Of a stretch of DNA of 47,733 nt, positions 67 to 31,190 are shown piece after piece (the first letter of the stretch is position 1; each line of letters opens with the position of its first letter). A program made the translations under genes and the position numbers. The stretch covers positions 1 to 47,733 of the IMG/VR virus record IMGVR_UViG_3300031226_000002; one strand, given 5' to 3'. The stretch comes from a virus. The notes below the pieces were generated by a model that saw only the letters and a list, made by a program, of their open reading frames with translations, was not told where the DNA came from and searched no databases.

Positions 67-609
67 ATGCCCAAACCTACCAGTAAGACCCCAGCGCTAA
101 TCGCACAGATGACGGCGCTTCATCAGGAAGGGGCATCCGGTCGGGAGATAGCGACAGCGCTGGGCTTGAATCACGGGACCATTACGACCTGGCTGCGCGA
201 CCTGGGACTAGAACCGAACGGGGGACAGGGGCCGCGCAAGACTCGAAAGCACCAGCCCCCGGGGGCCGCGCAAGCTGCGGCGGCTGAAGCGCATCGGGCG
301 CTTGCCAGGCTGACCGTTGTCCCCCCTTCTTCCGACGTCAGCGAACCGATCGCAGTCCTGCGACACCATCAGGTCATCGCGAATCGCCTAGTAGAATACC
401 ATTTTCAGAAAGCCAGCGAAGGGGCTACCGCGGTCAATGAAATCGCTAAGGCCATGCAGCTGGAAGATCAGATCGCTGTTCGTATTCAAGAGCTAACGCC
501 AATCGCGCCAGCGGATCCGGAAACCGATCCGGGGAACATCGAAGCGGCTGCGGAAGTGCGCGCGCGATTTGCCCGACTAGTTGAGTCAGCGGAAAGGGGG
601 AAGCGGTGA
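67..609 (+). CDS. Putative terminase small subunit (HTH protein)
   Basis: Predicted 180-residue protein. Residues about 10-50 form a helix-turn-helix of the homeodomain/resolvase style (GREIATALGLNHGTITTWLRDLG), followed by a basic Lys/Arg-Pro linker and a helical C-terminal half (about residues 80-175). This layout is usual for phage small terminases, which bind the packaging site and recruit the ATPase. It is the first gene of the rightward structural cluster and lies about 0.8 kb before the large terminase, which supports the call. It overlaps the next gene by four bases (GTGA). The identification rests on position and the HTH; no family-diagnostic motif exists. Confidence 0.65.
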   Translation: MPKPTSKTPALIAQMTALHQEGASGREIATALGLNHGTITTWLRDLGLEPNGGQGPRKTRKHQPPGAAQAAAAEAHRALARLTVVPPSSDVSEPIAVLRHHQVIANRLVEYHFQKASEGATAVNEIAKAMQLEDQIAVRIQELTPIAPADPETDPGNIEAAAEVRARFARLVESAERGKR

Positions 610-1450: not shown

Positions 1451-3016
1451 TTGCATCAATCGCACGATCCGGATTTCGAACGACGCTACCAAACGGCCAT
1501 CGCAGCCGCGCGCGATTACTCGCGAACACTGGAAGGTCCCAGCCTGGCCGAACGATTCGCGCGCCTACCAGCCGCCGATCGCGATCGGATCCTGGCCGAA
1601 TTCGGAACCATGGACCTGGCCCGTCTTCGTCATGACTGGGCATTGTGGGCGCGGCCCAAACAGGATCCGGATCTGTCGTCGGTCCCCCATCGCGTGTTCT
1701 TCCTACTCGGCGGTCGCGGGTCGGGGAAGACCATCGCTGCGGCCCATCGTGTTCGCCGCAGGGTCGAAGCGGGGGCCCGCTCAATTGCGATCGTCGGACC
1801 GACCCTGCGCGAAATCGAACGCTACCAAATCAAGGGCGAAGGCGGATCGGATGGGATCCTAACGGTCTTCCCGCCGCATCGCAGGCCGGAATACAAACCG
1901 CATAAGGCGTTAGTATTTTTTCATCGCCCGATCTGCGCGGGGTGCCCATCGGCGGAAGGATGCGGGGGGGCGATCGCCTATATCAATTCAGCAGAGGACC
2001 CAGAATTTCGCGGCCCAAACTTAGATTCTGTCTGGTGCGATGAACCAGCGAAGTGGCGTTACCTCAACACCATATGGTCAAACATCGAACTAGCGACACG
2101 GCTGCGGTCGACGGTCCCGCTCGAAATCATCCTGACCGGGACCCCCCGCCCGCTTCAGCTTTTCCGCGAACTGATAGCCGACGAAGAAACCGTCACCATC
2201 CTGATGGCCCAGTCGGAAAACGCATCGAACCTAGATGCCGGTTACGTCGCGCGCATGCAGCGAAAATATGGGGGGACGCGGCTGGGCCGTCAGGAAATGG
2301 ATGGGGAGATTCTAACGGATAACCCTGACGCGCTTTTCCAGGCTTCCGTGATTGATGCGACACGCGTTGAATTTGCGCCCGCTATGGATGAAGTAGCCGT
2401 AGCTGTCGACCCTGCGATCGCGACGAACCCGGAGAACGACGAAACGGGAATCATCGCGGGGGGGCGGGACGCGGCTGGGCATATCTACATTTTGGCCGAT
2501 GTGACGTCCCGATCCAAACCCGAGAAATGGGGGGCCGATGTCGTCGCGACCTGTGCACAGTGGCAATGCGACACGGTCGTAGGCGAGCGAAACCGGGGGG
2601 GGGACCTGGTCGCAGCGAACGTCCGCGCAGCGAAGGAACGACGTCACGGGCCGATGGCTGCGAAGGCATTGCGCATCGTCGAAGTGATCGCGACACGTCG
2701 GAAAGAAATCCGGGCCGAACCGGTTAGCACGCTGGCGGATAAGGGAATGATCCACATCGTCGGTCGGATGCCCGAACTGGAACAGGAGCTAACCGAATGG
2801 AACCCGAAGATCGGCGGGGTCAGTCCAAACCGATTGGATGCACTGGTCTGGCTGGTCTGGCACCTAGCCGGTTTGGGGAACGAAGAACGAACCGACTACC
2901 GATCCGGTTTCTCGGGTCTTACTGCGGCGGCTGCGTCGCTCCGTTCACCTTCCCCGCAGGGGGCGACGGGACTGGCTGCGGCGTTACCCCGTTCACAGTG
3001 GGGGGGGAAACTATAG
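1451..3016 (+). CDS. terL: Terminase large subunit (packaging ATPase/nuclease)
   Basis: 521 residues from a TTG start preceded by a run of seven Gs. It drives DNA into the prohead and cuts concatemers. The ATPase domain has Walker A GGRGSGKT (residues 87-94), Walker B LDSVWCDE (191-198) and coupling motif LTGTPRP (about 228-234). The nuclease domain begins near residue 312, with acidic VAVDPAI (D320), GERNRGGD (378-385) and a final NRLDALVW motif. An unusual Cys cluster (ICAGCPSAEGC, residues 161-171) sits inside the ATPase domain. The gene's last 98 bases overlap the end of the convergent portal gene. Length and motif order fit Mu gp28-like large terminases. Confidence 0.93.
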   Translation: MHQSHDPDFERRYQTAIAAARDYSRTLEGPSLAERFARLPAADRDRILAEFGTMDLARLRHDWALWARPKQDPDLSSVPHRVFFLLGGRGSGKTIAAAHRVRRRVEAGARSIAIVGPTLREIERYQIKGEGGSDGILTVFPPHRRPEYKPHKALVFFHRPICAGCPSAEGCGGAIAYINSAEDPEFRGPNLDSVWCDEPAKWRYLNTIWSNIELATRLRSTVPLEIILTGTPRPLQLFRELIADEETVTILMAQSENASNLDAGYVARMQRKYGGTRLGRQEMDGEILTDNPDALFQASVIDATRVEFAPAMDEVAVAVDPAIATNPENDETGIIAGGRDAAGHIYILADVTSRSKPEKWGADVVATCAQWQCDTVVGERNRGGDLVAANVRAAKERRHGPMAAKALRIVEVIATRRKEIRAEPVSTLADKGMIHIVGRMPELEQELTEWNPKIGGVSPNRLDALVWLVWHLAGLGNEERTDYRSGFSGLTAAAASLRSPSPQGATGLAAALPRSQWGGKL

Positions 3017-4481
3017 GGGGGGGCGCGTTGCCAAGCGCTTCCTGTTTCGCACTGAAGGCCGACACGGTTAGCAGCCCATCCGGATCAGCCGCGCCACCCT
3101 TCATCAGCGGGCCCAGCCCGGCACTAGCGCGCGCCTCGTTCACCAGAACGACCTTCGCCACGTCCGTAGGCGCCAGCGTCACAGTGGGGGCCCTATCGCT
3201 TTGGCTGGGCAAGGTCGGTTCCACCACGCCGAAATCATCGGATACGCGGTGTAGATATTCGGGCGTGACGTCAAACCCGTTATCCTTCGCCGATTTGATA
3301 GCGTCGTAAAACGCCTTCGTCCGATCGGCCAGGGACTTTCGCCGCGCGTCTTCGTCAGCATCGGGCATCAGGTAGACCCGATCGGGCGCTAGCGACGAAT
3401 CGCCGAAGTTCAGGGCGGCCCATGGTTCGATCACGCCCGTCCGGATCCCACGTTCGATCGCGCGTAGCGATCCTTCGACGATGTCATTTCGAACGCCGAA
3501 CAGGTAGCCGACTGCGTCCCCCCCCGCCGACGACATCGATACGTCATGCCCGAGATAGATCCGATCAGCCGCTTTATCGCCGCTGTCCACTATCTCTTTA
3601 AAGATTTGCCAGGCCGACGAATTATTGACGATGTAGTCCAGCGTCGACCCGAACGGTTTGATCCCAACGGGAACTTCAGCGCTGGCGACCGCACGAAGCA
3701 GATCCATGAACGCGGCCCCTTCGGGCGACAGCACCCCCGACGAATCCTGAAGCGCCAGACCTTCGGGCATCGTTCCCACGATCTTCGCGTTGCCGTGTGC
3801 GTTCGCAGCCCTTGCGCGGTCCCGGACCCCGAAAGCATGATCGGCCCATAGCATCGCGATCGGGAGAATGGCGCCATGCTTCCAGGGTTCCCATTCGTGC
3901 TGTTGGTAGATAACCCAGCGCCCATCGCCATGGGTGATGCATTCTGTCGGAAGACCTTCGATCGTCGTGGTGAACGCCCGCAGCGCAGGATCCCACGTGA
4001 CGAATTCGATCGGCCATGACTTGTGTTCGAAGTCGACCCTGGACCCGTCATCGCGGGGTGTCACCACGTTCAGCCCAAACGCCACGCCATGGTTCGCTAG
4101 GGTCCCGTCGATGTCGGCCAGCGTGTCCGGATGGATCCCAACGCCGCGGGGACCGAACAGGGCGGACCCTTCTGCCACCATGCGCAAGGCGCGCGCGCTG
4201 TCGACGGGTGGCGTCAGCTTGACGGGTAGCCCCCGCTGCGGCGCGAGACGATTTAGGAACGAAGCGAAGATCGCGTAGTCGGTCCGGGTAGCTTCTGCGA
4301 GGCGCGCGGGAAGCAGGAAGCGGCCGATCATTTGGTGTTCGCGCGCTTGGCGGATGGCACCCAGATCCCAACTATACAAACCACTGTTTCCCTTAGGGGG
4401 GCGAAATTCTGCGGCTAAGCGCACTAGATCGAATTCGTCCGCTTGCCTTACTTTCTTCGCGCGCTTTGAAGGTGCACCCAT
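2919..4481 (-). CDS. Portal protein, Mu gp29/DUF935-like, inverted
   Basis: About 520 residues, encoded on the strand opposite all other head genes. The portal forms the ring through which DNA passes at the vertex. Motifs such as DALRAF-like WDPALRAFTTT, GRWVIYQQHEWEPWKHG, LDYIVNNSSAWQIFKEIVD, LGHDVSMSSAGGDAVGYLFGVR and RAIERGIRTGVIEPWAALNFG match the general pattern of the Mu gp29-like portals. The start is the ATG at 4481, preceded by GGGGGGG five bases upstream; a GTG at 4517 would add 12 residues but lacks such a site. The Pro-rich C-terminus is encoded antisense to the end of the terminase gene. The inverted orientation requires its own promoter in the 90-bp divergent gap to the protease gene. 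Confidence 0.85.
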   Translation of the reverse strand: MGAPSKRAKKVRQADEFDLVRLAAEFRPPKGNSGLYSWDLGAIRQAREHQMIGRFLLPARLAEATRTDYAIFASFLNRLAPQRGLPVKLTPPVDSARALRMVAEGSALFGPRGVGIHPDTLADIDGTLANHGVAFGLNVVTPRDDGSRVDFEHKSWPIEFVTWDPALRAFTTTIEGLPTECITHGDGRWVIYQQHEWEPWKHGAILPIAMLWADHAFGVRDRARAANAHGNAKIVGTMPEGLALQDSSGVLSPEGAAFMDLLRAVASAEVPVGIKPFGSTLDYIVNNSSAWQIFKEIVDSGDKAADRIYLGHDVSMSSAGGDAVGYLFGVRNDIVEGSLRAIERGIRTGVIEPWAALNFGDSSLAPDRVYLMPDADEDARRKSLADRTKAFYDAIKSAKDNGFDVTPEYLHRVSDDFGVVEPTLPSQSDRAPTVTLAPTDVAKVVLVNEARASAGLGPLMKGGAADPDGLLTVSAFSAKQEALGNAPPPIVSPPTVNGVTPQPVPSPPAGKVNGATQPPQ

Positions 4482-4571
4482 GTCGACCCCCCCGGGTAAC
4501 GGATTAGCGACAGCCACTGGCTAGTTTAAAGTTATTGCTAATGACCTAACCATTGCGCCAATTTCCGATGA
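4482..4571. promoter_or_regulatory. Divergent gap between portal and protease genes
   Basis: About 90 bases separating two divergently transcribed head genes. The centre (roughly 4520-4560) is distinctly AT-richer than its flanks and contains TTTAAAG and TAATGA-like boxes and an ATTAGC/GCTAAT inverted repeat. Late promoters in both directions are expected here, but I cannot point to a convincing consensus. Confidence 0.4.
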
Positions 4572-5816
4572 ATGGCAAGCGCTCGCAAAGGCCGATCCGT
4601 CAGGGCGATGACCCTTTCGATTTCCTTTCTGGGTGACGCGCCCCCTGGCGAATTCCGCATCTTCGCAGCGGGGGAAAACGCCACAACCAAGGGAACGTTT
4701 CTATTCGATGCCGCCGCAGCTGCGCAGGTAATGGAAGCGTATCAGCGACACGGGACCGATGTGATGGTCGACCTGGAACACCTGTCGCTGGAAAGCCCGC
4801 AGGAATCACGGAACTTCGATCCGGATGCGCGCGCATGGGCCAAATTAGAACTTCGAAATGGCGAGCTTTGGGCGACGGGTGTGAAGTGGACACCTGACGG
4901 GGAAGCGCGCCTACGGGACAAGCGTCAGCGCTACGTGTCGCCCGCCTTCGAATTCGATCGGGAAACCCGGCGCATCACCAGCCTTTTGAACATCGCGATC
5001 ACTGCACTGCCAGCGACCGACAATCTAGCGCCACTGGTCGCAGCGAACGCCATCGAACCGGCCTACGTCGAAGGGGAGAAATCGATCATGAGTCCCGAAC
5101 AATTCGCACAGATTGCGGAAGCGCTGGGCCTAGGTGCTGATGCCAATGTCGAAGACGTCTTAGCGACTGTCGCGGCTATGGTGAAGAAAATTCAGGATGC
5201 TGCGAATGGCGAACCAGCGAAGGACGCACCAAAGGACGGCCCCCCGCCCCCCGACGCAGCCGCTGCGGCAACGGCGGAAGCGGCCCCCCCAGTCGTCGCT
5301 GCGACGAAGATCAGCACTGCGGCCCATGCGCTTGCGCGGCTGTCGGGAAAAAAGGACATCGGCCAGATCGTCGAAGAAGTCACGGCCTGGCGCGCTTCCC
5401 ACGTCGCCCTAGAAGCTGAACGCGAGAAGCTGGCGAAGGAACACGCGGTACTAGAAAGCGGCGAACGTCGTCGGCTGACGGGCGAGCTTGTGAAGCTGGG
5501 TGCTGAAATCCCCGCCACTGCATGGGCTGACGAAGCGGGAACGAAACCCGCCGAACCATGGGCATCGATGCCGCTAGATCAACTGCGCGCGCGGCTGGTG
5601 AAGCTGTCGAAGGCGAAAGGAATCACGCCAGCGCCAGCGCCGAAACCCGCCGTAACGCAAACGGCTGGGGGCGAAACGCCCGTCATCGTCCAGGGGGAAA
5701 CCGTCATGCTTACCGCTTCCGAAGTCGCGGCCTGCACGGAAGCCAACGCGAAGATCGAAGACTACGCCGCGAACAAACTGATCCGATTGCGCGCACAGAA
5801 GAAGCGCACGGGCTGA
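4572..5816 (+). CDS. Mu I-like prohead protease with C-terminal scaffold
   Basis: 414 residues. The N-terminal half resembles the Mu gpI prohead protease family (FRIFAAGENATTKGTFLFD, VMVDLEHLSLES, RDKRQRYVSPAFEFDRETRRITSL, NIAITALPATDNL). These proteases cleave scaffold and themselves during capsid maturation; the His in DLEH and the Ser in YVSPAF are candidate catalytic residues by family analogy. Residues from about 175 on are a helical, Ala/Glu-rich scaffold region. The start is uncertain: ATG 4572, or ATG 4608 (MTLSISFLG), which better matches the family N-terminus. It is followed 12 bases later by the decoration protein gene. Confidence 0.85.
   Translation: MASARKGRSVRAMTLSISFLGDAPPGEFRIFAAGENATTKGTFLFDAAAAAQVMEAYQRHGTDVMVDLEHLSLESPQESRNFDPDARAWAKLELRNGELWATGVKWTPDGEARLRDKRQRYVSPAFEFDRETRRITSLLNIAITALPATDNLAPLVAANAIEPAYVEGEKSIMSPEQFAQIAEALGLGADANVEDVLATVAAMVKKIQDAANGEPAKDAPKDGPPPPDAAAAATAEAAPPVVAATKISTAAHALARLSGKKDIGQIVEEVTAWRASHVALEAEREKLAKEHAVLESGERRRLTGELVKLGAEIPATAWADEAGTKPAEPWASMPLDQLRARLVKLSKAKGITPAPAPKPAVTQTAGGETPVIVQGETVMLTASEVAACTEANAKIEDYAANKLIRLRAQKKRTG
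5088..5816 (+). CDS. Internal in-frame scaffold product (Mu Z-like)
   Basis: Within the protease gene an in-frame ATG at 5088 is preceded by AAGGGGAG at a good distance and begins MSPEQFAQIAEALGLG. Translation from here would give a 242-residue scaffold without the protease domain, exactly the nested arrangement known for Mu genes I and Z and lambda C/Nu3. The product is Ala/Glu-rich with predicted helices (KLAKEHAVLESGERRRLTGE region). That the site is used is inferred from the ribosome binding site and from family precedent. Confidence 0.6.
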   Translation: MSPEQFAQIAEALGLGADANVEDVLATVAAMVKKIQDAANGEPAKDAPKDGPPPPDAAAAATAEAAPPVVAATKISTAAHALARLSGKKDIGQIVEEVTAWRASHVALEAEREKLAKEHAVLESGERRRLTGELVKLGAEIPATAWADEAGTKPAEPWASMPLDQLRARLVKLSKAKGITPAPAPKPAVTQTAGGETPVIVQGETVMLTASEVAACTEANAKIEDYAANKLIRLRAQKKRTG

Positions 5817-5828
5817 CGGGGGAAGACC

Positions 5829-6356
5829 ATGGCTAACGCGCAAAACAATCTGATCATTCAGTCGGTCGGGCATGAGGGATACATCTTCGATCTTCCCGTC
5901 GATGCGGGGACCCATATCTACGAAGGGACCCTGATTTCGCAGCTGACCGCTACGGGTATGGCCGTCCCCTATTCGACTGCGTCCAGCGAACACGCGGTAG
6001 GGGTAGCCCAGCACGAACAGGACGCGACGCTAGGGGCTGATGGCGATAAGCGGATCCGTGTCGAAAGCCATCGCATGTATGCATTTGCGAACGGGCTGAC
6101 CACCGATGCCTTCGCTGATACCGACATCATCGGGGCCCCCGTTTATGCGACCGACGATCACACGGCTGCGAAAACGTCGGGGACTGGCGCACGCAAACCG
6201 ATCGGGTTTTTCATGGGGTTCGAAGCTGATGGCCGTGTTCGGGTCTTCGTCGATCCGATGCTGGCCCGGCTCTATGCGTCGCTGGGTGGACTGACCGACG
6301 CACCCGCCACGGCGGACGCACTGCGCGACAATATCGTAGCGAAGGTATCGGTTTAA
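5829..6356 (+). CDS. Head decoration/cement protein (DUF2190-like)
   Basis: 175 residues, ATG preceded by GGGGGAAGACC. Beta-rich sequence with features of capsid cement proteins (HEGYIFDLPVDAGTHIYEGTLISQ, AVGVAQHEQDA, GARKPIGFFMGFEADGRVRVFVDP). It lies directly between protease/scaffold and major capsid genes, the usual place for the decoration protein that stabilises expanded capsids. No trimer contacts or catalytic residues can be assigned from sequence alone. Family call is by resemblance and position. Confidence 0.7.
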   Translation: MANAQNNLIIQSVGHEGYIFDLPVDAGTHIYEGTLISQLTATGMAVPYSTASSEHAVGVAQHEQDATLGADGDKRIRVESHRMYAFANGLTTDAFADTDIIGAPVYATDDHTAAKTSGTGARKPIGFFMGFEADGRVRVFVDPMLARLYASLGGLTDAPATADALRDNIVAKVSV

Positions 6357-6383: not shown

Positions 6384-7361
6384 ATGGGTTCTCTTTATAC
6401 GAATGAGCTACTCCCGACGACTTCGGAACAAGCGATCCGAATTTTCGACGAACGCTACCTAGCGGGGATTTCATCGGTCCAGCCCCCGACATGGGCGGAA
6501 CAGCTGGGGGACAGCGTCGCGATGGGCGCCCCCCGGATCACGTTTCCGATCGGGATGCTGTCGACGAAATACATCGAAACGCGCGAAGTGTCGGGCCGCT
6601 TCCGCACCATGCAGGAAGAAAGCTTTGATCTCAAAGTCGTCGAATATGACGCGGGATACGAAGCGAAGCTGATGGATCTGACCACGAACACTTACGCCTA
6701 TCGCAAATGGACGGAAGTGCCGGGCCGCTTTCTGACGGCAGAAAAACGCCACGTCAATCGCGCGATCGCCACCCTACTGGAAACCGGTACCGTCGAAACC
6801 TCGCCATGGGACAACGTCGCGTTCTTCAGCGCATCGCATAAGGCGAACCCTACGGGGGACCCCGCCACGACATGGAGTAACTATCAGGCTACGCCCGCCG
6901 ACTGCACGGACATGGCGAAGCTTCTGCAGGAAGTCACTGCAATGCAGGGTCAGGTACTGGACGAGAACGGGGAAAAGCTCGGCGCTGACCCTGACACCAT
7001 TCTCGTTTCGACCGCCAAATATGAACCCCTGCGCGTTCTTCTGGCGCAAGCAATGATCCTGGTAGGGGCCAGCACCGCGCCTATTTCTAACCCCTACATG
7101 TCAAAGTTTAACGTCATCCATGTCCCGGAACTTACGGACGTGAATGACTGGTATTTGGTCGACAGTAAGCTGATGGCTGCGCAGGGGGTTCCCCCGTGGC
7201 TGGCGGCTAAGTATCAGCCTGCGTCCGATCTGGGTCTTCGTTCGTTCGATGAGTCTTCCGACTTCTTTAAGGACAGCGGGAAGATCAAAGTTTCATCCCA
7301 TATTTGGTACGGGTTCCGGCTGATTTTTCCGCACGCTATTCGTTTGGTGCGCGGCGCGTAA
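6384..7361 (+). CDS. Major capsid protein (Mu gpT-like)
   Basis: 325 residues; ATG follows a run of nine Gs (GGGGGGGGGATTAAATC). The pattern matches Mu gpT-type HK97-fold capsid proteins: N-terminal MGSLYTNELLPTTSEQAIR, an E-loop-like region with YIETREVSGRFRTMQEES, central TILVSTAKYEPLRVLLAQAM and C-terminal NVIHVPELTDVNDWYLVD followed by KVSSHIWYGFRLIFPHA. It self-assembles into the icosahedral shell. The preceding gene pair (protease/scaffold, cement) and the following connector genes confirm the context. High predicted expression fits the very strong G-run ribosome binding site. Confidence 0.88.
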   Translation: MGSLYTNELLPTTSEQAIRIFDERYLAGISSVQPPTWAEQLGDSVAMGAPRITFPIGMLSTKYIETREVSGRFRTMQEESFDLKVVEYDAGYEAKLMDLTTNTYAYRKWTEVPGRFLTAEKRHVNRAIATLLETGTVETSPWDNVAFFSASHKANPTGDPATTWSNYQATPADCTDMAKLLQEVTAMQGQVLDENGEKLGADPDTILVSTAKYEPLRVLLAQAMILVGASTAPISNPYMSKFNVIHVPELTDVNDWYLVDSKLMAAQGVPPWLAAKYQPASDLGLRSFDESSDFFKDSGKIKVSSHIWYGFRLIFPHAIRLVRGA

Positions 7362-8403: not shown

Positions 8404-8982
8404 ATGCTTTACGCGATCGCCAAAGATTTAGCCGCAGCGCTGAAGGCCCAACATGTTCCCATTCCCGTGGTCTTCGGTCCCGACGTGGACAGCGTTGGCA
8501 TCGACGAACGGATCGTCATCGATTACCGGGGGCTGAACGCTGACACGATCGACCCGCCGACATCGCAGCATTTCAATCCCAAAATGCCATGGCGACGGGT
8601 GCAAGGCGGGCGCATCCGCATCTATGCGCGCAGTCCGGTCGATGGGGCGGCCTGGCATGATCACGCCGAACGCGCAGAACGGATCCTAGATCATGTCGTC
8701 GCTGAACTGGACGCAGTGGTCAAGGTGCGCCGGAATCTTCTGACGTTCGGCCCGGGTGGGTTCGTCCAGCTGGAAGACGAAACGGGAACCGAAATCACGG
8801 CGGGCGCTGTTTACGATCTTGCCTTCAGTGTCGACCGCGGGATTTTCCGAACGACCTGGGAAGGTGGCGCGCGCGGGACTGTCGTGATCGGTGTCGATGT
8901 CGATTTGAACAGCACCACGAAAGTCAGCCCGGGTCCAGGGCCAGCGGGGACCCCGCCACCTGACGCGGAAATTGCCTGTTAA
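8404..8982 (+). CDS. Putative tail terminator (Mu gp37-like position)
   Basis: 192 residues beginning immediately after the previous stop. Content such as YAIAKDLAAALKAQ, VVFGPDVDSVGIDERIVIDYRG, RIRIYARSPVDGAAWHDHAERAERILDHVVAELDAVVKVRRN and a beta-rich C-terminus fits proteins encoded between the gpG-like gene and the sheath that cap the tail tube. The Ser/Pro/Gly-rich last 25 residues look disordered. Assignment is by position and general pattern. Confidence 0.55.
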   Translation: MLYAIAKDLAAALKAQHVPIPVVFGPDVDSVGIDERIVIDYRGLNADTIDPPTSQHFNPKMPWRRVQGGRIRIYARSPVDGAAWHDHAERAERILDHVVAELDAVVKVRRNLLTFGPGGFVQLEDETGTEITAGAVYDLAFSVDRGIFRTTWEGGARGTVVIGVDVDLNSTTKVSPGPGPAGTPPPDAEIAC

Positions 8983-8994
8983 CGGGGGGAAGCC

Positions 8995-10473
8995 ATGGCC
9001 TATTTGCCGACAGCGACGATCATCATTGACGACGAAGCGGGGGCGCAAGCGCAGGGAACGGAAACCCTGACCGTTATCGGCGCCGTTGAAATGAATGGGG
9101 ATATCACGCCGCGGGTATTCGCTTCGACGAAGGCGATTCTGGCGAAGCACGGTTACTCCGAAGCGGTCGATTATTGCGCGCTTCACTTCGAAGAAACGAA
9201 GAAACCGATCTTGTTCGTCGGTCTACCGAAGGCGATAGCTGGAACGATCAGCGCGGTCGAAACGACGGGTAACACCGGCACCAGCGTTATCACAGTATCG
9301 GGCGGGACGAATGGGGTGCTAGACGCTTGCAACGCGTCAGTCACTATCGTCACGGGCGGGACTATCGGAACGGATCAGATCGTATTCGATCTGTCACTAG
9401 ACGGCGGGCGAAACCGCGTCCGGGTGCGGCTAGGGCTGGCGCTTGTCCACGTCATCCCTTATCTCGGGATGAAAATCAATTTCGCCGCAGGCACGTTGGT
9501 TGCGGGCGACATCGCAGCTACGTGGACTTCGACGGCACCCCGGTGGGGAACGGCTGCGCTTTCCGCTGCGCGAGAAGCATTGGCCATGCATCAAAGGGCA
9601 TCGCGATCGTGGCTTATCGTTGGCGATCTAGAAGATGAGAACGACGCTAATACGGTCGTCACTGAAATCAACGCGTATGCAACGGCGAACGATCGATGCC
9701 TGACGGCCCGCACGCAAGTTCACGATCCGGCCGCAGGCGAGCTTGATAGCGACTGGGTCGCAGATATCGACGCAGAATTTGGACCGATCGCAACCGAGCG
9801 ACGGATCAACCTAGGCGCGGGTCGCGGCGCAAAGCTTTCGCCGATCACGGGCTGGCGGCTGCGTCGTCCCGTGCAGTGGGCGGCATCGCTTCGTGAGTAT
9901 CAGCACGATGTCCAGATCCCAACGTATCGGAAATCTGACGGCCCTTGTTCGGGCTGGACGCTGGAAGACACGGACGGGAACACCATCGAACATGATGAAC
10001 GTGTCGACGGCGGACTTTTGCTTGCGCGTTTCACCTGCTTTCGAACGTTCGCAAATGGGCCACTAGGCGCGTTCATTGCGCTCGATCTTACCCGCGCGCA
10101 GGACGGTTCACTGCTTACGCGCAATCACAATATGGCGGTCGCTAACATTGCGTGCAACGTCGCGCAGGCCGAAACAGAAAACGCGCTAGGTCAGATTCTC
10201 GAGGTTAACGCTGACGGGACGGGAACCGAAGCTAGCCTGGCCGTGATCGATGAACGCGTAAACACGGCGCTGGCGATCGCGCTGCTTCAGCGGGGGGCCG
10301 AAGGGGTGCGCGCATCCGATGCAAAATGGGCCGCGAGCAGAACGGACATTCTCAACATTCCGGGCGCTGAACTGACGGGCATCCTGGATCTGCGTCTAAA
10401 CGGAACGCTCGAGAAAATCACAACGCGGGTGCACATACCTGCGGGCGGCGCTGTCGCTAATGCTGGGGCGTAA
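8995..10473 (+). CDS. Contractile tail sheath protein (Mu gpL-like)
   Basis: 492 residues, preceded by CGGGGGGAAGCC. Sheath features include the N-terminal strand PTATIIIDDEAGAQAQGTETLTVIG, the middle domain VVTEINAYATANDRCLTARTQVHD, the conserved LRRPVQWAASLREYQHDVQIPTYRKSDGP block and the C-terminal MAVANIACNVAQAETENALGQIL...DILNIPGAELTGILDLRLNG strands used for sheath interlacing. This indicates a contractile (myovirus-type) tail. An inserted region (residues about 85-180, SAVETTGNTGTSVITVSGG) looks like an added surface domain. The tube gene follows within 12 bases. Confidence 0.88.
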   Translation: MAYLPTATIIIDDEAGAQAQGTETLTVIGAVEMNGDITPRVFASTKAILAKHGYSEAVDYCALHFEETKKPILFVGLPKAIAGTISAVETTGNTGTSVITVSGGTNGVLDACNASVTIVTGGTIGTDQIVFDLSLDGGRNRVRVRLGLALVHVIPYLGMKINFAAGTLVAGDIAATWTSTAPRWGTAALSAAREALAMHQRASRSWLIVGDLEDENDANTVVTEINAYATANDRCLTARTQVHDPAAGELDSDWVADIDAEFGPIATERRINLGAGRGAKLSPITGWRLRRPVQWAASLREYQHDVQIPTYRKSDGPCSGWTLEDTDGNTIEHDERVDGGLLLARFTCFRTFANGPLGAFIALDLTRAQDGSLLTRNHNMAVANIACNVAQAETENALGQILEVNADGTGTEASLAVIDERVNTALAIALLQRGAEGVRASDAKWAASRTDILNIPGAELTGILDLRLNGTLEKITTRVHIPAGGAVANAGA

Positions 10474-10484
10474 GGGGGGGAATT

Positions 10485-10952
10485 ATGGCGTTCGAATATC
10501 CGACATTAAATGGCATTGCGCCTAGCTGGGCAGATATCCGGATCACGCTGTCGATCTATGCGGGACTTTCCCTCGCACCTACTGACGTCGCTTCGATCAA
10601 ATGGAGCGATAAAGTCACCCCCGGGGTAGTGCGGGGAACCAGCGGGGGCCAGAAGAAAGCGCGAACCGTTGGCGAGTATGAATGTGAAGCGTCGATCACG
10701 TTCTACCGTAATGGCTGGGAACAGTTTCGATCCGGGCTGACCGTTCTAAACAAGCGGCTAACGCTGGTCGGTTTCGACGTGATGATCCAACACACCCCGC
10801 CCGGGTCGATCGCCATTCTGAAAACGAAGATCGCAGGGTGCCGCGTCATCGGTCGGACTGCTGACATGCAGGAAGGTGCGGACGCTGACAAAGTCGAGAT
10901 TCCGCTAGACGTCATGCGGATCGAAGAAGGGAACGGCATATCGCTTCTGTGA
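10485..10952 (+). CDS. Tail tube protein
   Basis: 155 residues; ATG follows GGGGGGAATT. Positioned directly after the sheath, as tube genes are in myoviruses. Sequence shows alternating beta strands (WADIRITLSIYAGLSLAPTDVASIKWSDKVTPGVVRG, GEYECEASITFYRNGWEQFRSGLT, ILKTKIAGCRVIGRTADMQEGADADKVEIPLDVMRIEE), consistent with the tube fold that stacks as hexameric rings. It is somewhat longer than the Mu tube gpM, and the family call comes mainly from position and strand pattern. Confidence 0.75.
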   Translation: MAFEYPTLNGIAPSWADIRITLSIYAGLSLAPTDVASIKWSDKVTPGVVRGTSGGQKKARTVGEYECEASITFYRNGWEQFRSGLTVLNKRLTLVGFDVMIQHTPPGSIAILKTKIAGCRVIGRTADMQEGADADKVEIPLDVMRIEEGNGISLL

Positions 10953-10972
10953 TGCCGGGGGAAGGGTTCGCT

Positions 10973-11380
10973 ATGACGGTCGAAGAAATCGAAGCACGCC
11001 GCGCGAAACGGAAAGAAGCAATCGCTAAGGCGCGCGAAGAACAATACGCAAAGGATCTAGAACGGGTCGACCAGCTAGAAATGGAACTGGGTGACGACCG
11101 GGTGGGGGTATTGAAGATGCCTTCGTTCGTCGCGACGCTTCCTACGCTGGTCGTCGTCCGAACCCCATCGTCTTCCGTGTTCAATCGGTTTCGATCGATG
11201 GTACGCGCAGCGGGGCAAAAGACGGTAGCCATCGGTGCAGCGAAGGACCTGATGGCATCTAGCTGCGTCGCTTACCCCGACGAAGAAACCTATAAACGCA
11301 TGTGCGAAGAATGGCCATCGATACACGATAACGTGGGAATCGAAGCCATTCGGCTGGGTGAAACGGAGGGAAAAGACTAG
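10973..11380 (+). CDS. Tail assembly chaperone, short form (lambda G / Mu gp41-type)
   Basis: 135 residues from ATG 10973 (MTVEEIEARRAKRKEA), chosen over an ATG at 10949 because GGGGGAAGGG precedes it. The N-terminus is a charged helix; the rest (VATLPTLVVVRTPSSSVFNRFRSMVR...CVAYPDEETYKRMCEEWPSIHDNVGIEAIRLGE) resembles small tail assembly chaperones with a Phe-Trp-rich core. It lies between tube and tape measure, the invariant position of these chaperones. Its last codons contain a -1 slippery heptamer, so part of translation is expected to continue in the -1 frame. Confidence 0.75.
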   Translation: MTVEEIEARRAKRKEAIAKAREEQYAKDLERVDQLEMELGDDRVGVLKMPSFVATLPTLVVVRTPSSSVFNRFRSMVRAAGQKTVAIGAAKDLMASSCVAYPDEETYKRMCEEWPSIHDNVGIEAIRLGETEGKD

Positions 11381-11423
11381 GCGAGCGCATCGGGGAAGCG
11401 CAGAAAAACGCGATCGTGCTCGC
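11368..11423 (+). promoter_or_regulatory. Programmed -1 ribosomal frameshift signal
   Basis: The heptamer GGGAAAA spans 11368-11374, read in zero frame as G-GGA-AAA two codons before the TAG stop. After a 6-nt spacer a stem starts at 11381: 11381-11388 pairs with 11416-11423 (one G-T), then, after a single bulged C at 11415, 11389-11392 pairs with 11411-11414. This gives 12 base pairs around an 18-nt loop. Slippery site, spacer length and stem match known -1 recoding signals at tail chaperone genes. Confidence 0.85.
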
Positions 11424-11535
11424 AGACTGTTTACTAGCTTGGCTTCCCCCGCCCGAAGGTGCTGACGACGCAAGGGCTGGCGCCATCGTCTTCGCGGAAT
11501 TTATCAACCTAGTTCGTAACGCGCTGAAGAAGTGA
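11374..11535 (+). CDS. -1 frame extension of the tail chaperone (T-like domain)
   Basis: After slippage the ribosome reads R-L-G-E-R-I-G-E-A-Q... for 53 codons to the TGA at 11533-11535, giving a fusion of about 187 residues. The added segment is a sensible polypeptide (IVLADCLLAWLPPPEG, then AGAIVFAEFINLVRNALKK) with no start codon or ribosome binding site of its own and fills the gap to the tape measure gene exactly. Such extensions bind the tape measure protein during tail assembly in lambda, P2 and Mu relatives. Confidence 0.8.
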   Translation, partial: RLGERIGEAQKNAIVLADCLLAWLPPPEGADDARAGAIVFAEFINLVRNALKK

Positions 11536-11541
11536 CGGGCC

Positions 11542-13488
11542 ATGGCTGACGGAACCCAATACCTGATCGAACTGTCGGCCAAATTCACGGGGGGCGATGC
11601 CGCCGTGTCGACACTGTCCGACCTGGGTGATCGGATGCTGAAGGCTGGCGCCAATTCGGAAGCGCTGGAACGCGCCGCGAAGGCCATGGGCGTTTCGATG
11701 GAAGAAGCTGACGCAGCGGTCAAGTCGGCTAACAGCGCACTGGAAGAAGGCGAGCGGAAATACAAAGCGGCCGAAGTGGCTGCGGACCGTGCGGCGAAGG
11801 CTGTCGAACGTGTCGGGGTCCAGGCCGCCGCGCAGTGGGGAAAACTTGATAAAGCGATGGAAGTTGGCGACACGGGCGGCATCGCTGCGGCAGAAGCTGC
11901 GATCGCAAAACTCGCCGCGAAACAGGGCGAACTAGCGGCATCAGCTGCGGCTGCGAAGGAAGCGCTAAAGGGGGAAGCGGCTGCGGTCGACGGACTGAAG
12001 GGAAAAGCGACAGCCGCAGCGACGTCGCAGGACGCACTTAAAAAGGGACTAGCGAACGTCAAGAGCGCCACTGATACCGCGAAGAAGGCGGAAGCAGCCG
12101 CAGCGGGAACGGGCAAACTTCAGGACATCGCGCAAGCGTTTGGCAAAATGGGCGGCCCAGTGGGCGCGACTGGTCAGGAAGTGCTGGGCCTAGCGGGTAG
12201 CTTTGGAAAACTGGGTAGCGCGATGGGGTCGGCCGGTCCCTACGTCGCGGTAGCGCTCGCCATCGTTGCCATCGCTACCGCAGCCATAGCCGCCACGATC
12301 GCGATCGCGAAATGGGGGGTCAGCATGGCGGATGCTAACCGAACCCAGTCCCTTTTGACGGCTGGCATCGCGCGCAGTGTGAAGGGGGGCGAAGAACTAG
12401 AGAAGGAATACAGCAAAATAACCGCCGTTCTTCCCGTCACAAATGACGAACTAGCAGGGATGGCGAAGGGCCTAGCCGATTCCGGTTTGCGCGGGAAGGA
12501 TCTAAGCAATGCGCTGGAACGATCGGCGGTCGCTGCGGCGAAATTGAAGTTCGGGCCCGACTTCCAAAAGGCGATGCTGGGCCTAGATTTTCAGGCGAAA
12601 AAACTAGACTCCAATCTACAGGACACGTTTGGGGGGCTGAAGATCGAAGGCCTGCTAGGCGGCATCCAAACGCTGATCGCCCTGTTCGATTCCACGGAAG
12701 CCAGTGGCAAGGCGATGAAGTTCCTATTTGAATCGCTGTTTCAGCCGCTGATCGACGGCGCGACCGAAGCCATTCCCAAGATCGAACGGCTGTTTCTATA
12801 CGCCATCATTTGGGCGCTGAAGGCATGGATCGCGCTGAAGCCATATAAGAAAGAAATGGAGGCGATCGCTAAGGTGCTGTTGATTGGCGCGGCGATCATT
12901 GTGGGGGTGCTGATCGTAGCGATCGCGTCCCTAGTTGTGGCGATAGTTGCGGCGATCGCGATCATCGGCGCGCTGGGCTATGCGCTTTATAAAATCCTGG
13001 AAGTGCTGGTGCTGATCACGGTCGGTCTAGTCAAAGGCCTTTACATCATGGTTACGACGTTCGCGACTGCGGGCTATGACTTCGTCGCGGGGTTAATCAA
13101 AGGAATCCTTAGCGGCGCGACTGCGATCATCGATGCCATGGTCGGGGTAGTAAAGGGCGGCTATGACGCAGTATCGAAGTTCCTGAAGCGTGGGTCGCCT
13201 TCGAAGCTGATGATGGAAGTCGGCTCGGATGTGGCGGAAGGTTACACGGGCGGGGTCGAAGACGGATCGGCGGATGCACAAGGCGCGATGGAAGCCATGG
13301 TCGCGCCCCCATCGACGACAGCTAGCGCGGTCAGTGGCGCGGCTGGGGGCGCTTCGATCGTGATCCAGCAAATGACCGTCACGGGTGAAGGGGCGAAAGA
13401 ACTAGCGCTGGACTTCATCGATCAAATCACACGGCTGCTAGAGGGCGATGCGCGCGCGCTTGGCGGGGGAGAAACGGCCCATGCCTAA
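11542..13488 (+). CDS. Tape measure protein
   Basis: 648 residues with the usual makeup: a long Ala/Lys/Glu coiled-coil N-terminus (about residues 25-190), a Gly/Ala-rich segment with a hydrophobic stretch (VAVALAIVAIATAAIAATIAIA, about 235-256), a central helical domain and a strongly hydrophobic region with two or three membrane-like segments (about 445-505), then GSPSKLMMEVGSDVAEGYTGGVEDG near residue 555, a motif common to phage tape measures. It sets tail length and may enter the membrane at injection. The length suggests a tail of roughly 0.1 micrometre using the usual rise per residue; that is only an estimate. Confidence 0.9.
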   Translation: MADGTQYLIELSAKFTGGDAAVSTLSDLGDRMLKAGANSEALERAAKAMGVSMEEADAAVKSANSALEEGERKYKAAEVAADRAAKAVERVGVQAAAQWGKLDKAMEVGDTGGIAAAEAAIAKLAAKQGELAASAAAAKEALKGEAAAVDGLKGKATAAATSQDALKKGLANVKSATDTAKKAEAAAAGTGKLQDIAQAFGKMGGPVGATGQEVLGLAGSFGKLGSAMGSAGPYVAVALAIVAIATAAIAATIAIAKWGVSMADANRTQSLLTAGIARSVKGGEELEKEYSKITAVLPVTNDELAGMAKGLADSGLRGKDLSNALERSAVAAAKLKFGPDFQKAMLGLDFQAKKLDSNLQDTFGGLKIEGLLGGIQTLIALFDSTEASGKAMKFLFESLFQPLIDGATEAIPKIERLFLYAIIWALKAWIALKPYKKEMEAIAKVLLIGAAIIVGVLIVAIASLVVAIVAAIAIIGALGYALYKILEVLVLITVGLVKGLYIMVTTFATAGYDFVAGLIKGILSGATAIIDAMVGVVKGGYDAVSKFLKRGSPSKLMMEVGSDVAEGYTGGVEDGSADAQGAMEAMVAPPSTTASAVSGAAGGASIVIQQMTVTGEGAKELALDFIDQITRLLEGDARALGGGETAHA

Positions 13489-14014
13489 CCCCGTCGACAA
13501 TGAATCGCTTTACGATTCGATCGTTCTAGATAACAAGCGATCGCCTGGTCGCGTCGCATTGTCGGGCCATGATCGTAAACATCGCTGGGACATTAAAGAA
13601 CCGATAGGCCATGGCGGGGGGACGACGACTTACAAGGGCGAACAGATCGCGCAGTTCACGGCGGAATTCACCCTAACGCGCGACCCGGTCCAGGGCTTGG
13701 ATGAATTCGCGGACTGGGAAAAGTTCGCCGCAATGGTCAAGGCGATGCTTCCTAAGTCGGGACCCCCTAAGGCGCGGTCGATCTATCACCCTGATCTAGC
13801 CGCGAACGATATCAAGAGTGTCTCGCAGGCTGGAATCAGTGGGCTGGTGCACGATGGCAAGGGGGGTGCGAAGGTCACTATTTCGTTTCTCGAATTCCGA
13901 CCGCCCAAAAAGTTCACGGGTCTACCTACGAAGCCAACGAAGGCCGACCCCAACGCGGATCTGAAGCATGAGATCAACGATGTTCTTTTACCGGAAGCAG
14001 CGCGGCCCATATGA
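13481..14014 (+). CDS. Baseplate/tail hub-associated protein
   Basis: 177 residues from ATG 13481, overlapping the tape measure stop and preceded by GGGGGAGAAACGG. Contains GRVALSGHDRKHRWDIKEPIGHGGGTTTYKGE and a C-terminal VTISFLEFRPPKK; the latter phrase is frequent in small baseplate proteins that connect tube and hub in contractile tails. Location between tape measure and hub/spike gene fits the Mu gp43 (N) position, although this protein is much shorter than Mu gp43. Ends overlapping the next start by ATGA. Confidence 0.6.
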   Translation: MPNPVDNESLYDSIVLDNKRSPGRVALSGHDRKHRWDIKEPIGHGGGTTTYKGEQIAQFTAEFTLTRDPVQGLDEFADWEKFAAMVKAMLPKSGPPKARSIYHPDLAANDIKSVSQAGISGLVHDGKGGAKVTISFLEFRPPKKFTGLPTKPTKADPNADLKHEINDVLLPEAARPI

Positions 14015-29286: not shown

Positions 29287-30024
29287 ATGAAACAGACGAC
29301 GAAACGAACCCCCGCAGTGTTGGCCATCATCGCGCGCGACATCTATACCGCGGCCCATGATAACGCGATCGACACGGTAAAAGAGAACACGACGAAGCAG
29401 CAGCGGGCCGCCCTTCCGAAGCACGGCGGATCGGATCCGAAGTTCGCCGATATGTATTGCCTGGACCTGCACCCTGAATTTGCTGGGTGGCTGCGCGCAT
29501 CGGTGCAAATGGTGCTGGACGATTGCGGTGGACGGGCCCATCGGGACTACGGGTTAGACCGCCCCTTGACGTCGAACCAGTCCGAACAGGTGGCCAGGCT
29601 GATCGCTGCGAACCATGGCGTGGACGTCACCACTGCGAAACCGAAGAAGATCGCCAAGCGTACCACCCGCGTAGTGTGCGAACAGATGGCGGGGGATGGC
29701 GTGGAAACCGTTACCCAAATGGTGCAACTGGCCGATGAAGTGATCGGGCTGCAAATCGTTCAGCTTGCCAGCGAAATCATCGACGCAGCGAACGAGAACG
29801 CCGCAGCGATGGGCGCCAGTTCGATCCATTTGTTGAGTGGCGCAAGCGGTCCCGATTGGAACCGGTCCGACCTGTCGATCGCGCTGCGGCTGGGAACGGT
29901 CAGCGCATGGTGGGTCGTCAAGCTGGGGGGCGCAAGCTTCGAAGCGCCATCCGTGATCGAAGCGCTGCGGGGTCTTCTCGCGATCGTCAAGCGCTTCCGG
30001 GCGACCACCGAAAGGGCGGTGTAA
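29287..30024 (+). CDS. Unknown protein encoded upstream of integrase
   Basis: 245 residues from ATG 29287 with AGAAGGA upstream. Helical; phrases such as LAIIARDIYTAAHDNAIDTVKENTTKQQRAALPKHGG, QVARLIAANHGVDVTTAKPKKIAKRTTRVVCEQMAGDGVETVTQMVQLADEVIGLQ and GTVSAWWVVKLGGASFEAPS. The region about 100-130 is basic and could touch DNA. No known excisionase pattern. The integrase starts three bases after its stop, so the two proteins are made together and this may be an integration accessory factor. Confidence 0.55.
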   Translation: MKQTTKRTPAVLAIIARDIYTAAHDNAIDTVKENTTKQQRAALPKHGGSDPKFADMYCLDLHPEFAGWLRASVQMVLDDCGGRAHRDYGLDRPLTSNQSEQVARLIAANHGVDVTTAKPKKIAKRTTRVVCEQMAGDGVETVTQMVQLADEVIGLQIVQLASEIIDAANENAAAMGASSIHLLSGASGPDWNRSDLSIALRLGTVSAWWVVKLGGASFEAPSVIEALRGLLAIVKRFRATTERAV

Positions 30025-30026
30025 CC

Positions 30027-31190
30027 ATGGCACTGGTACCCCGTCAGCGAAAAAACAAGATCGTTTTCTACGTCGCGAACAAGCAAGGCAAGGTCCTGAT
30101 CTGGGAAAAGGTCGGGACCGATCGGCGGGAAGCGATGCGCCGTGACGCAGCCATGCGGAAGGAAATCAAGGCTGGCATTTATCGGGGTCTTCCGACGGGC
30201 GCCAAAACGGTAGGGGCACAGATGGAGATCTATCTTGCCGCGCGCCAAACCCGAACGGTTGACGACGACCGCCGAAACTACCGCGACCACGTGGCAAAGC
30301 GCTGCGCTTGGTTCACCCGGCTGAAGCTGGAAGACGTGCGGGTCGCTCACGTGATCCGGCTGGCGGAAGAACTGAAGGCCCCCTACGTGAACAAGAAAGG
30401 GGAAACGAAGTCACTCGCCGCGAACAGCCATAACCACATTTTCCGATCGCTACTCGGCCCGTTCTTTCGCAATTGCCGCATCCATGATCTCATGATCCGC
30501 AACGTCATGGAGCTACCGAAGGGGCTGCTTAGCAGGCAAGCCAAACGCCGCGTTCCCTACGATGCGACGACCGTGATCGCGATGACGACCGACGAACGTC
30601 TACCGCTGCACTGGCGGGTCGCGTTCACCCTGCTGTTTTACACCGGCATCCGGACGGGGGAAGCGTGCGGCCTGAAGTTCGGCGATTACGACGCTGACCC
30701 GGTCCCCTTCGGGTCGCTGACGATCGAAAAACAGTACGTCAACGCGCCGCTTAAAACGGCCGTAACGGTGGGCGACGAACACACCCGCTGGGTTCCCGTT
30801 CTCCCCTTCCTGCGCGACACGCTGGCCGAATGGTGGGCGCATGGGTTTGAGCGGACGCACTGCCGCAAACCCACGAAGGCGGACTACGTGATCGCCCGCA
30901 GCGATGGCGCGGTTTTGCGATGCGTGTCGGGGCACACGATCTACCGTTGGTTTCTGGCTGCGCTTGAAATCGTAGGCGTGGAAAATAAGACCGTGCACGC
31001 GACCCGGAACACCTTCATCAGCCTGGCAAGGCGGGCGGGCGCCCGTGGGGAAGTGCTGGAAAAGGTGACCCACAACGCGAAGGGGTCGATCATCGACTGC
31101 TATACGAACTTCGACTGGGCCCCCCTTTGCGATGCGGCTGGCTACTTCAATCCCTACACAGCGGGCCCGAAGATGCGCGCAGTCGGCTAA
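30027..31190 (+). CDS. int: Tyrosine integrase
   Basis: 387 residues. N-terminal arm-binding region, a core-binding (SAM-like) domain about residues 58-165, and the catalytic domain with all conserved residues: Arg209 (YTGIRTGEACGL), His324 and Arg327 (HATRNTF), His349 (VTHNAKG) and nucleophile Tyr359 (DCYTNFDW). It integrates the phage into the host chromosome by strand exchange at att sites. ATG follows GAAAGGGCGGTGTAACC. Candidate arm sites lie 0.8-1.0 kb upstream and a strong terminator follows. The start was set at 30027 because longer readings overlap the gene upstream. Confidence 0.93.
   Translation: MALVPRQRKNKIVFYVANKQGKVLIWEKVGTDRREAMRRDAAMRKEIKAGIYRGLPTGAKTVGAQMEIYLAARQTRTVDDDRRNYRDHVAKRCAWFTRLKLEDVRVAHVIRLAEELKAPYVNKKGETKSLAANSHNHIFRSLLGPFFRNCRIHDLMIRNVMELPKGLLSRQAKRRVPYDATTVIAMTTDERLPLHWRVAFTLLFYTGIRTGEACGLKFGDYDADPVPFGSLTIEKQYVNAPLKTAVTVGDEHTRWVPVLPFLRDTLAEWWAHGFERTHCRKPTKADYVIARSDGAVLRCVSGHTIYRWFLAALEIVGVENKTVHATRNTFISLARRAGARGEVLEKVTHNAKGSIIDCYTNFDWAPLCDAAGYFNPYTAGPKMRAVG

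Follow-up and report, generated by a model that had tools for sequence, protein, structure and literature searches.

A portal gene inverted between the terminase and protease genes is shared by a clade of phages with Mu-type head genes

The portal gene of the phage represented by a 47,733-nt IMG/VR viral record (hereafter the window, meaning the whole stretch of DNA analyzed) is encoded on the strand opposite to the terminase and protease genes flanking it, and in all 15 records that carry this portal family the portal runs opposite to the protease and capsid genes. The inversion of this single head gene is real, inherited and functional, and makes a lineage-specific version of the Mu-type head module. 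Quite probably the arrangement goes back to a single event in the ancestor of the clade, either inversion of the portal gene or its re-insertion in reverse, and then became fixed, with the portal a working gene read from a spacer shared with the protease gene. This ancestor would have been a tailed phage with Mu-type head genes, from a lineage infecting myxobacteria (Polyangiales). Few traits of tailed phages are as stable as the order of their head genes, in which the gene for the portal, the ring that admits DNA to the head, usually lies between those for the terminase and the protease and in the same orientation. Phages that have kept the portal alone inverted over deep divergence provide a natural test of whether head assembly depends on this order and on co-transcription. 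No description of this arrangement was found in the open literature searched, which is weak evidence of novelty.

Six-frame translation and Pfam searches supported the assignment of the genes at 1451-3016, 2919-4517 and 4572-5816 as terL, portal and protease. The terminase large subunit gene terL (1451-3016, plus strand; PF03237, 8e-15; PF17289; phrog_979) is followed by the portal gene (Portal_Mu, PF06074; 2919-4481, minus strand; 2919-4517 if read from GTG 4517), and the plus strand then encodes the Mu gpI-like head maturation protease (4572-5816; PF10123, 6e-31), a virion structural/decoration protein (5829-6356; phrog_1731) and the gpT-like major capsid protein (6384-7361; PF10124, phrog_371). 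The layout described in the initial annotation, with the portal on the opposite strand, tail-to-tail with terL over a 98-nt overlap and head-to-head with the protease, is confirmed by both the Pfam matches and the coordinates. A candidate terminase small subunit gene (terS; 67-609, plus strand), encoding an HTH protein with matches to HTH/DNA-binding families, is syntenic in relatives. The portal is the sole clear minus-strand gene in the head and tail region (about 67-21,200). Immediately ahead of terL, ARAGORN called a minus-strand tRNA-Met (1353-1422), which is doubtful since an Rfam search gave no match.

The gene was identified as a portal by its PF06074 match (E 2.5e-19, 70.2 bits versus a curated cut-off of 23.9), which spans model positions 2-332 of 336, and by hhalign of its profile against those of six named Mu-type phages (E 8e-27). 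A broader portal profile matched solved portals (8rka, 5e-25) but includes the Mx4 and Riverbug sequences and is hence not independent; a clade-only portal profile compared with solved structures matched no portal, and an AlphaFold model built from 7 sequences was set aside at a pLDDT of 38. Translation most likely starts at ATG 4481 rather than GTG 4517, since an N-terminus resembling MGAPSKRAKK and a purine-rich Shine-Dalgarno sequence upstream of it are both kept in eight genomes. The protease start at 4572 agrees with the alignment to several relatives.

Portal and terL queries retrieved viral contigs belonging to about ten metagenomes, and bacterial genomes yielded two Polyangiaceae MAGs and G045, a further genome of the same order. 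The portal family set comprised the window and 14 records (11 metagenomic viral contigs and 3 myxobacterial genomes), with the near copies L022, L023 and L024 counted separately; a capsid scan based on a single sequence recovered just one relative. Portal identity among the relatives ranged from 36 to 76%, and their sheath gene is also antiparallel to the portal. Fourteen of the 15 records have the window's gene order, the exception being G045 with terL and portal on the minus and the protease on the plus strand. While the initial annotation had treated the inversion as unusual for this genome, the comparison of gene order that it proposed turned up the case it had named as refuting, an arrangement that is standard in the clade and shared by all relatives carrying this portal. 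The surprise drops once the relatives are seen, and the remaining interest lies in the conserved divergent spacer. Several records exhibited features of their own: the G045 portal (L108) bears an N-terminal helix-turn-helix-like extension, the G005 portal (L005:7492-8313) a charged C-terminal extension of ~270 residues without a Pfam match, and the G003 terL (L026:8575-9325) is interrupted by an intein-like insertion (CLVGETMITMGDGSTKRIDAI ... HNC). In the Polyangiaceae prophage L017 the protease and terL frames are broken (8741-9951 and 12389-13881), suggesting decay or sequence errors.

As a control, PF06074 and PF10123 matches in 379 Myxococcota genomes were paired when no more than a few kilobases apart on one contig, and the pairs were tallied by eye from the two match tables. 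This resulted in 30 codirectional portal/protease pairs versus 3 opposite ones (G011, G012 and G045), all of them members of the inverted-portal clade. The annotated portal is codirectional in six named phages (Mx4, Riverbug, MMP7, Mushu, SuMu and HS6), in agreement with the earlier claim that the window departs from the usual Mu-type order. In a portal tree of 35 rows, all inverted portals lay beyond one branch with a support of 100/100, corresponding to one change of orientation; the nearest outgroup, the long-branched L132 next to the clade, carried the codirectional label on this tree although no protease was identified in it. The ancient inversion considered in the initial annotation is upheld by this tree as an old, single event.

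The portal may have been inverted in place, which would account for 12 of the 13 tree members in one step. Tentatively, and concerning the route rather than the present function, the portal could instead have been replaced by horizontal exchange with a backward copy, or a portal-terL block could have been inverted with terL later flipped back or replaced. Such a route would fit L108 (G045; 8873-11928), where terL and portal both run against the head genes and the gene order is terL-portal-protease, as well as the terL genes of L005, L016 and L017, which are more diverged from that of the window than their portals and capsids are. However, the trees do not separate these alternatives, and the terL tree did not settle whether terL was exchanged.

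The substitution pattern points to a gene in use. Between the window and its nearest relative, dN/dS was 0.13 for the portal (0.09 in the first 430 codons) and 0.06 for terL, figures that are rough with synonymous differences near saturation in this pair, and the portal value for L020 versus L021 was 0.13. These ratios indicate that the portal is under purifying selection and functional. The 3' ends of terL and portal overlap antisense by exactly 98 nt including both stop codons (2919-3016, both strands), and one of the two frames is easily dropped during annotation. The overlap measures 98-119 nt in eight close genomes; among deeper members it is 12 nt in L005, 4 nt in L006 and 0 nt in L016, while L017 has a gap of ~1 kb. 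Over only ~32 codons per gene, dN/dS reached 1.6 and 1.1 on the portal side, which encodes a proline-rich tail, pointing to little or no constraint there, and about 0.5 on the terL side, pointing to some. Because the overlap is short or missing in deeper relatives and unconserved on the portal side, the co-encoded C-termini to which the initial annotation had drawn attention are a packing by-product without conserved shared code, as would result from convergent genes packed end to end.

A portal start at ATG 4481 leaves a divergent spacer of 90 nt to the protease gene (4482-4571; GC 0.50 versus a genome value of about 0.6). Halfway from one start codon to the other it contains a conserved motif (CCACTGGCTAGTTTAAAGTTATTGC; 4514-4538, plus strand), a candidate bidirectional late promoter or operator, whose pattern CCANTGG-N7-AAAC-N4-TTGC is present with near-constant spacing in the homologous spacer of 8 close genomes. 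Across seven fully read phage genomes or contigs, 7/9 matches to the corresponding regular expression fell in the spacer, with about one match per genome expected by chance; since the eight motif-bearing genomes are related and their sites not independent, this enrichment is suggestive rather than strong. No such motif was evident in the deeper-branching L005, L006, L016, L017 and L108. A sigma-70 promoter scan detected no site in the spacer, and promoter and terminator counts were at or below those of shuffles. As a standard sigma-70 promoter the motif fits neither direction, and for a sigma-54 site the spacing from TGG to TTGC is wrong. A phage-encoded sigma factor as common regulator was likewise rejected, region 2 being present in only one of 11 records (L005) and region 4 in none. 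The L005 match is an ORF within the portal/protease spacer on the protease strand (L005:5498-5990, minus strand; PF04542, 1e-12).

The motif is probably a shared late promoter or activator site, the direction of reading being inferred. Following a single inversion, the portal would be read leftward from the 90-nt spacer and a transcript in the rightward direction from the same spacer would cover the protease, decoration protein, capsid and tail genes, while terS and terL would have to be read from elsewhere. The extra late promoter that the initial annotation called for could be this conserved element.

The portal forms a 12-copy ring, compared with hundreds of capsid copies, and an adaptive flip in which its own promoter keeps the portal dose low or sets its timing would be compatible with the single inversion, adding a selective reason to it. 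We regard this as possible but unlikely: fixation over deep divergence (portal identity down to 36-45%), the conserved spacer element and the sigma-70 region 2 ORF in the L005 spacer are in its favor, while conservation alone equally fits a neutral frozen accident and codirectional relatives manage without a separate portal promoter. It is doubtful that the divergent spacer acts as a dedicated late bidirectional control point setting portal dose or timing apart from the rest of the head in this MuF-less lineage, with the sigma factor in the L005 spacer as a candidate control gene.

Inversion of a single gene and nothing more might also suggest an invertible segment, with the portal flipping back and forth as a switch. 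This is very improbable, since all 15 records are in the same state, no recombinase adjoins the portal, flanking inverted repeats do not go beyond chance-like 20-mers at about 85%, and a flip would cut into terL through the overlapping 3' ends. A mis-joined contig inverted in silico only, which the initial annotation, having seen a single contig, had raised for about 2919-4530, can practically be dismissed, because all relatives found have an antiparallel portal, the order recurs in independent metagenome assemblies and three bacterial genomes at the portal identities given above, and the junctions are free of long inverted repeats.

Despite its Mu-type head genes, the window phage does not look like a transposing Mu-type phage, judging by a tyrosine integrase-like ORF (29856-31190; weak match) and an apparently fixed left end. 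It encodes a DnaB-type helicase, and no MuA transposase or MuB domains were detected in the part of the ORFs that was scanned. The left genome end (1-66), a probable cos-type terminus, lies upstream of terS. Six related contigs have their first bases in one homologous sequence (CCTCGG..AAATATCGG) immediately upstream of terS, and in others the junction lies inside the contig. The shared start is consistent with a fixed cos-like end, suggesting that the window represents a nearly complete genome.

The absence of a gp30/F-like minor head gene, stated in the initial annotation, holds: a six-frame search of the whole window record did not find MuF (PF04233), which was also missing from 13/13 members of the clade that were searched, whereas both named controls had it. 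In several codirectional Polyangiales prophages, L137 and L142 among them, the portal adjoins the protease as well. As this adjacency occurs in codirectional relatives too, the loss need not be tied to the flip, and MuF was probably lost separately from the inversion, perhaps before it. MuF fusion proteins often carry C-terminal domains, and those of Mx4 (L008:9680-11089) and Riverbug (L009:9361-10497) do so (an ATLF-like match and a PBECR2 nuclease).

Compared with the Mu-type head order (terL, portal, MuF, protease and capsid on one strand), the window has its portal on the other strand and no MuF. The Haemophilus phage SuMu (NC_019455) has homologous portal (PF06074), protease (PF10123) and capsid genes and the order terL, portal, protease, capsid, but its portal is codirectional and followed by a MuF gene. 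Mx4 (OK085710), a Myxococcus phage and thus one with a myxobacterial host, is the closest named phage by portal and protease and has the same head gene families; in contrast to the window, its terL, portal, MuF (PF04233) and protease are all on one strand, and portal identity is 25%. The Thermus phage Riverbug (PQ109080) and the Meiothermus phage MMP7 (MK071653) share the portal and protease families, whereas in these two a codirectional portal gene precedes one for MuF/head morphogenesis. The prophages of the Polyangiaceae MAGs (WQZB01000018, L016; WQYX01000041, L017) are without a terL/portal overlap of the window's length and without the spacer motif, but have the inverted portal between terL and protease and the same downstream head and tail genes.
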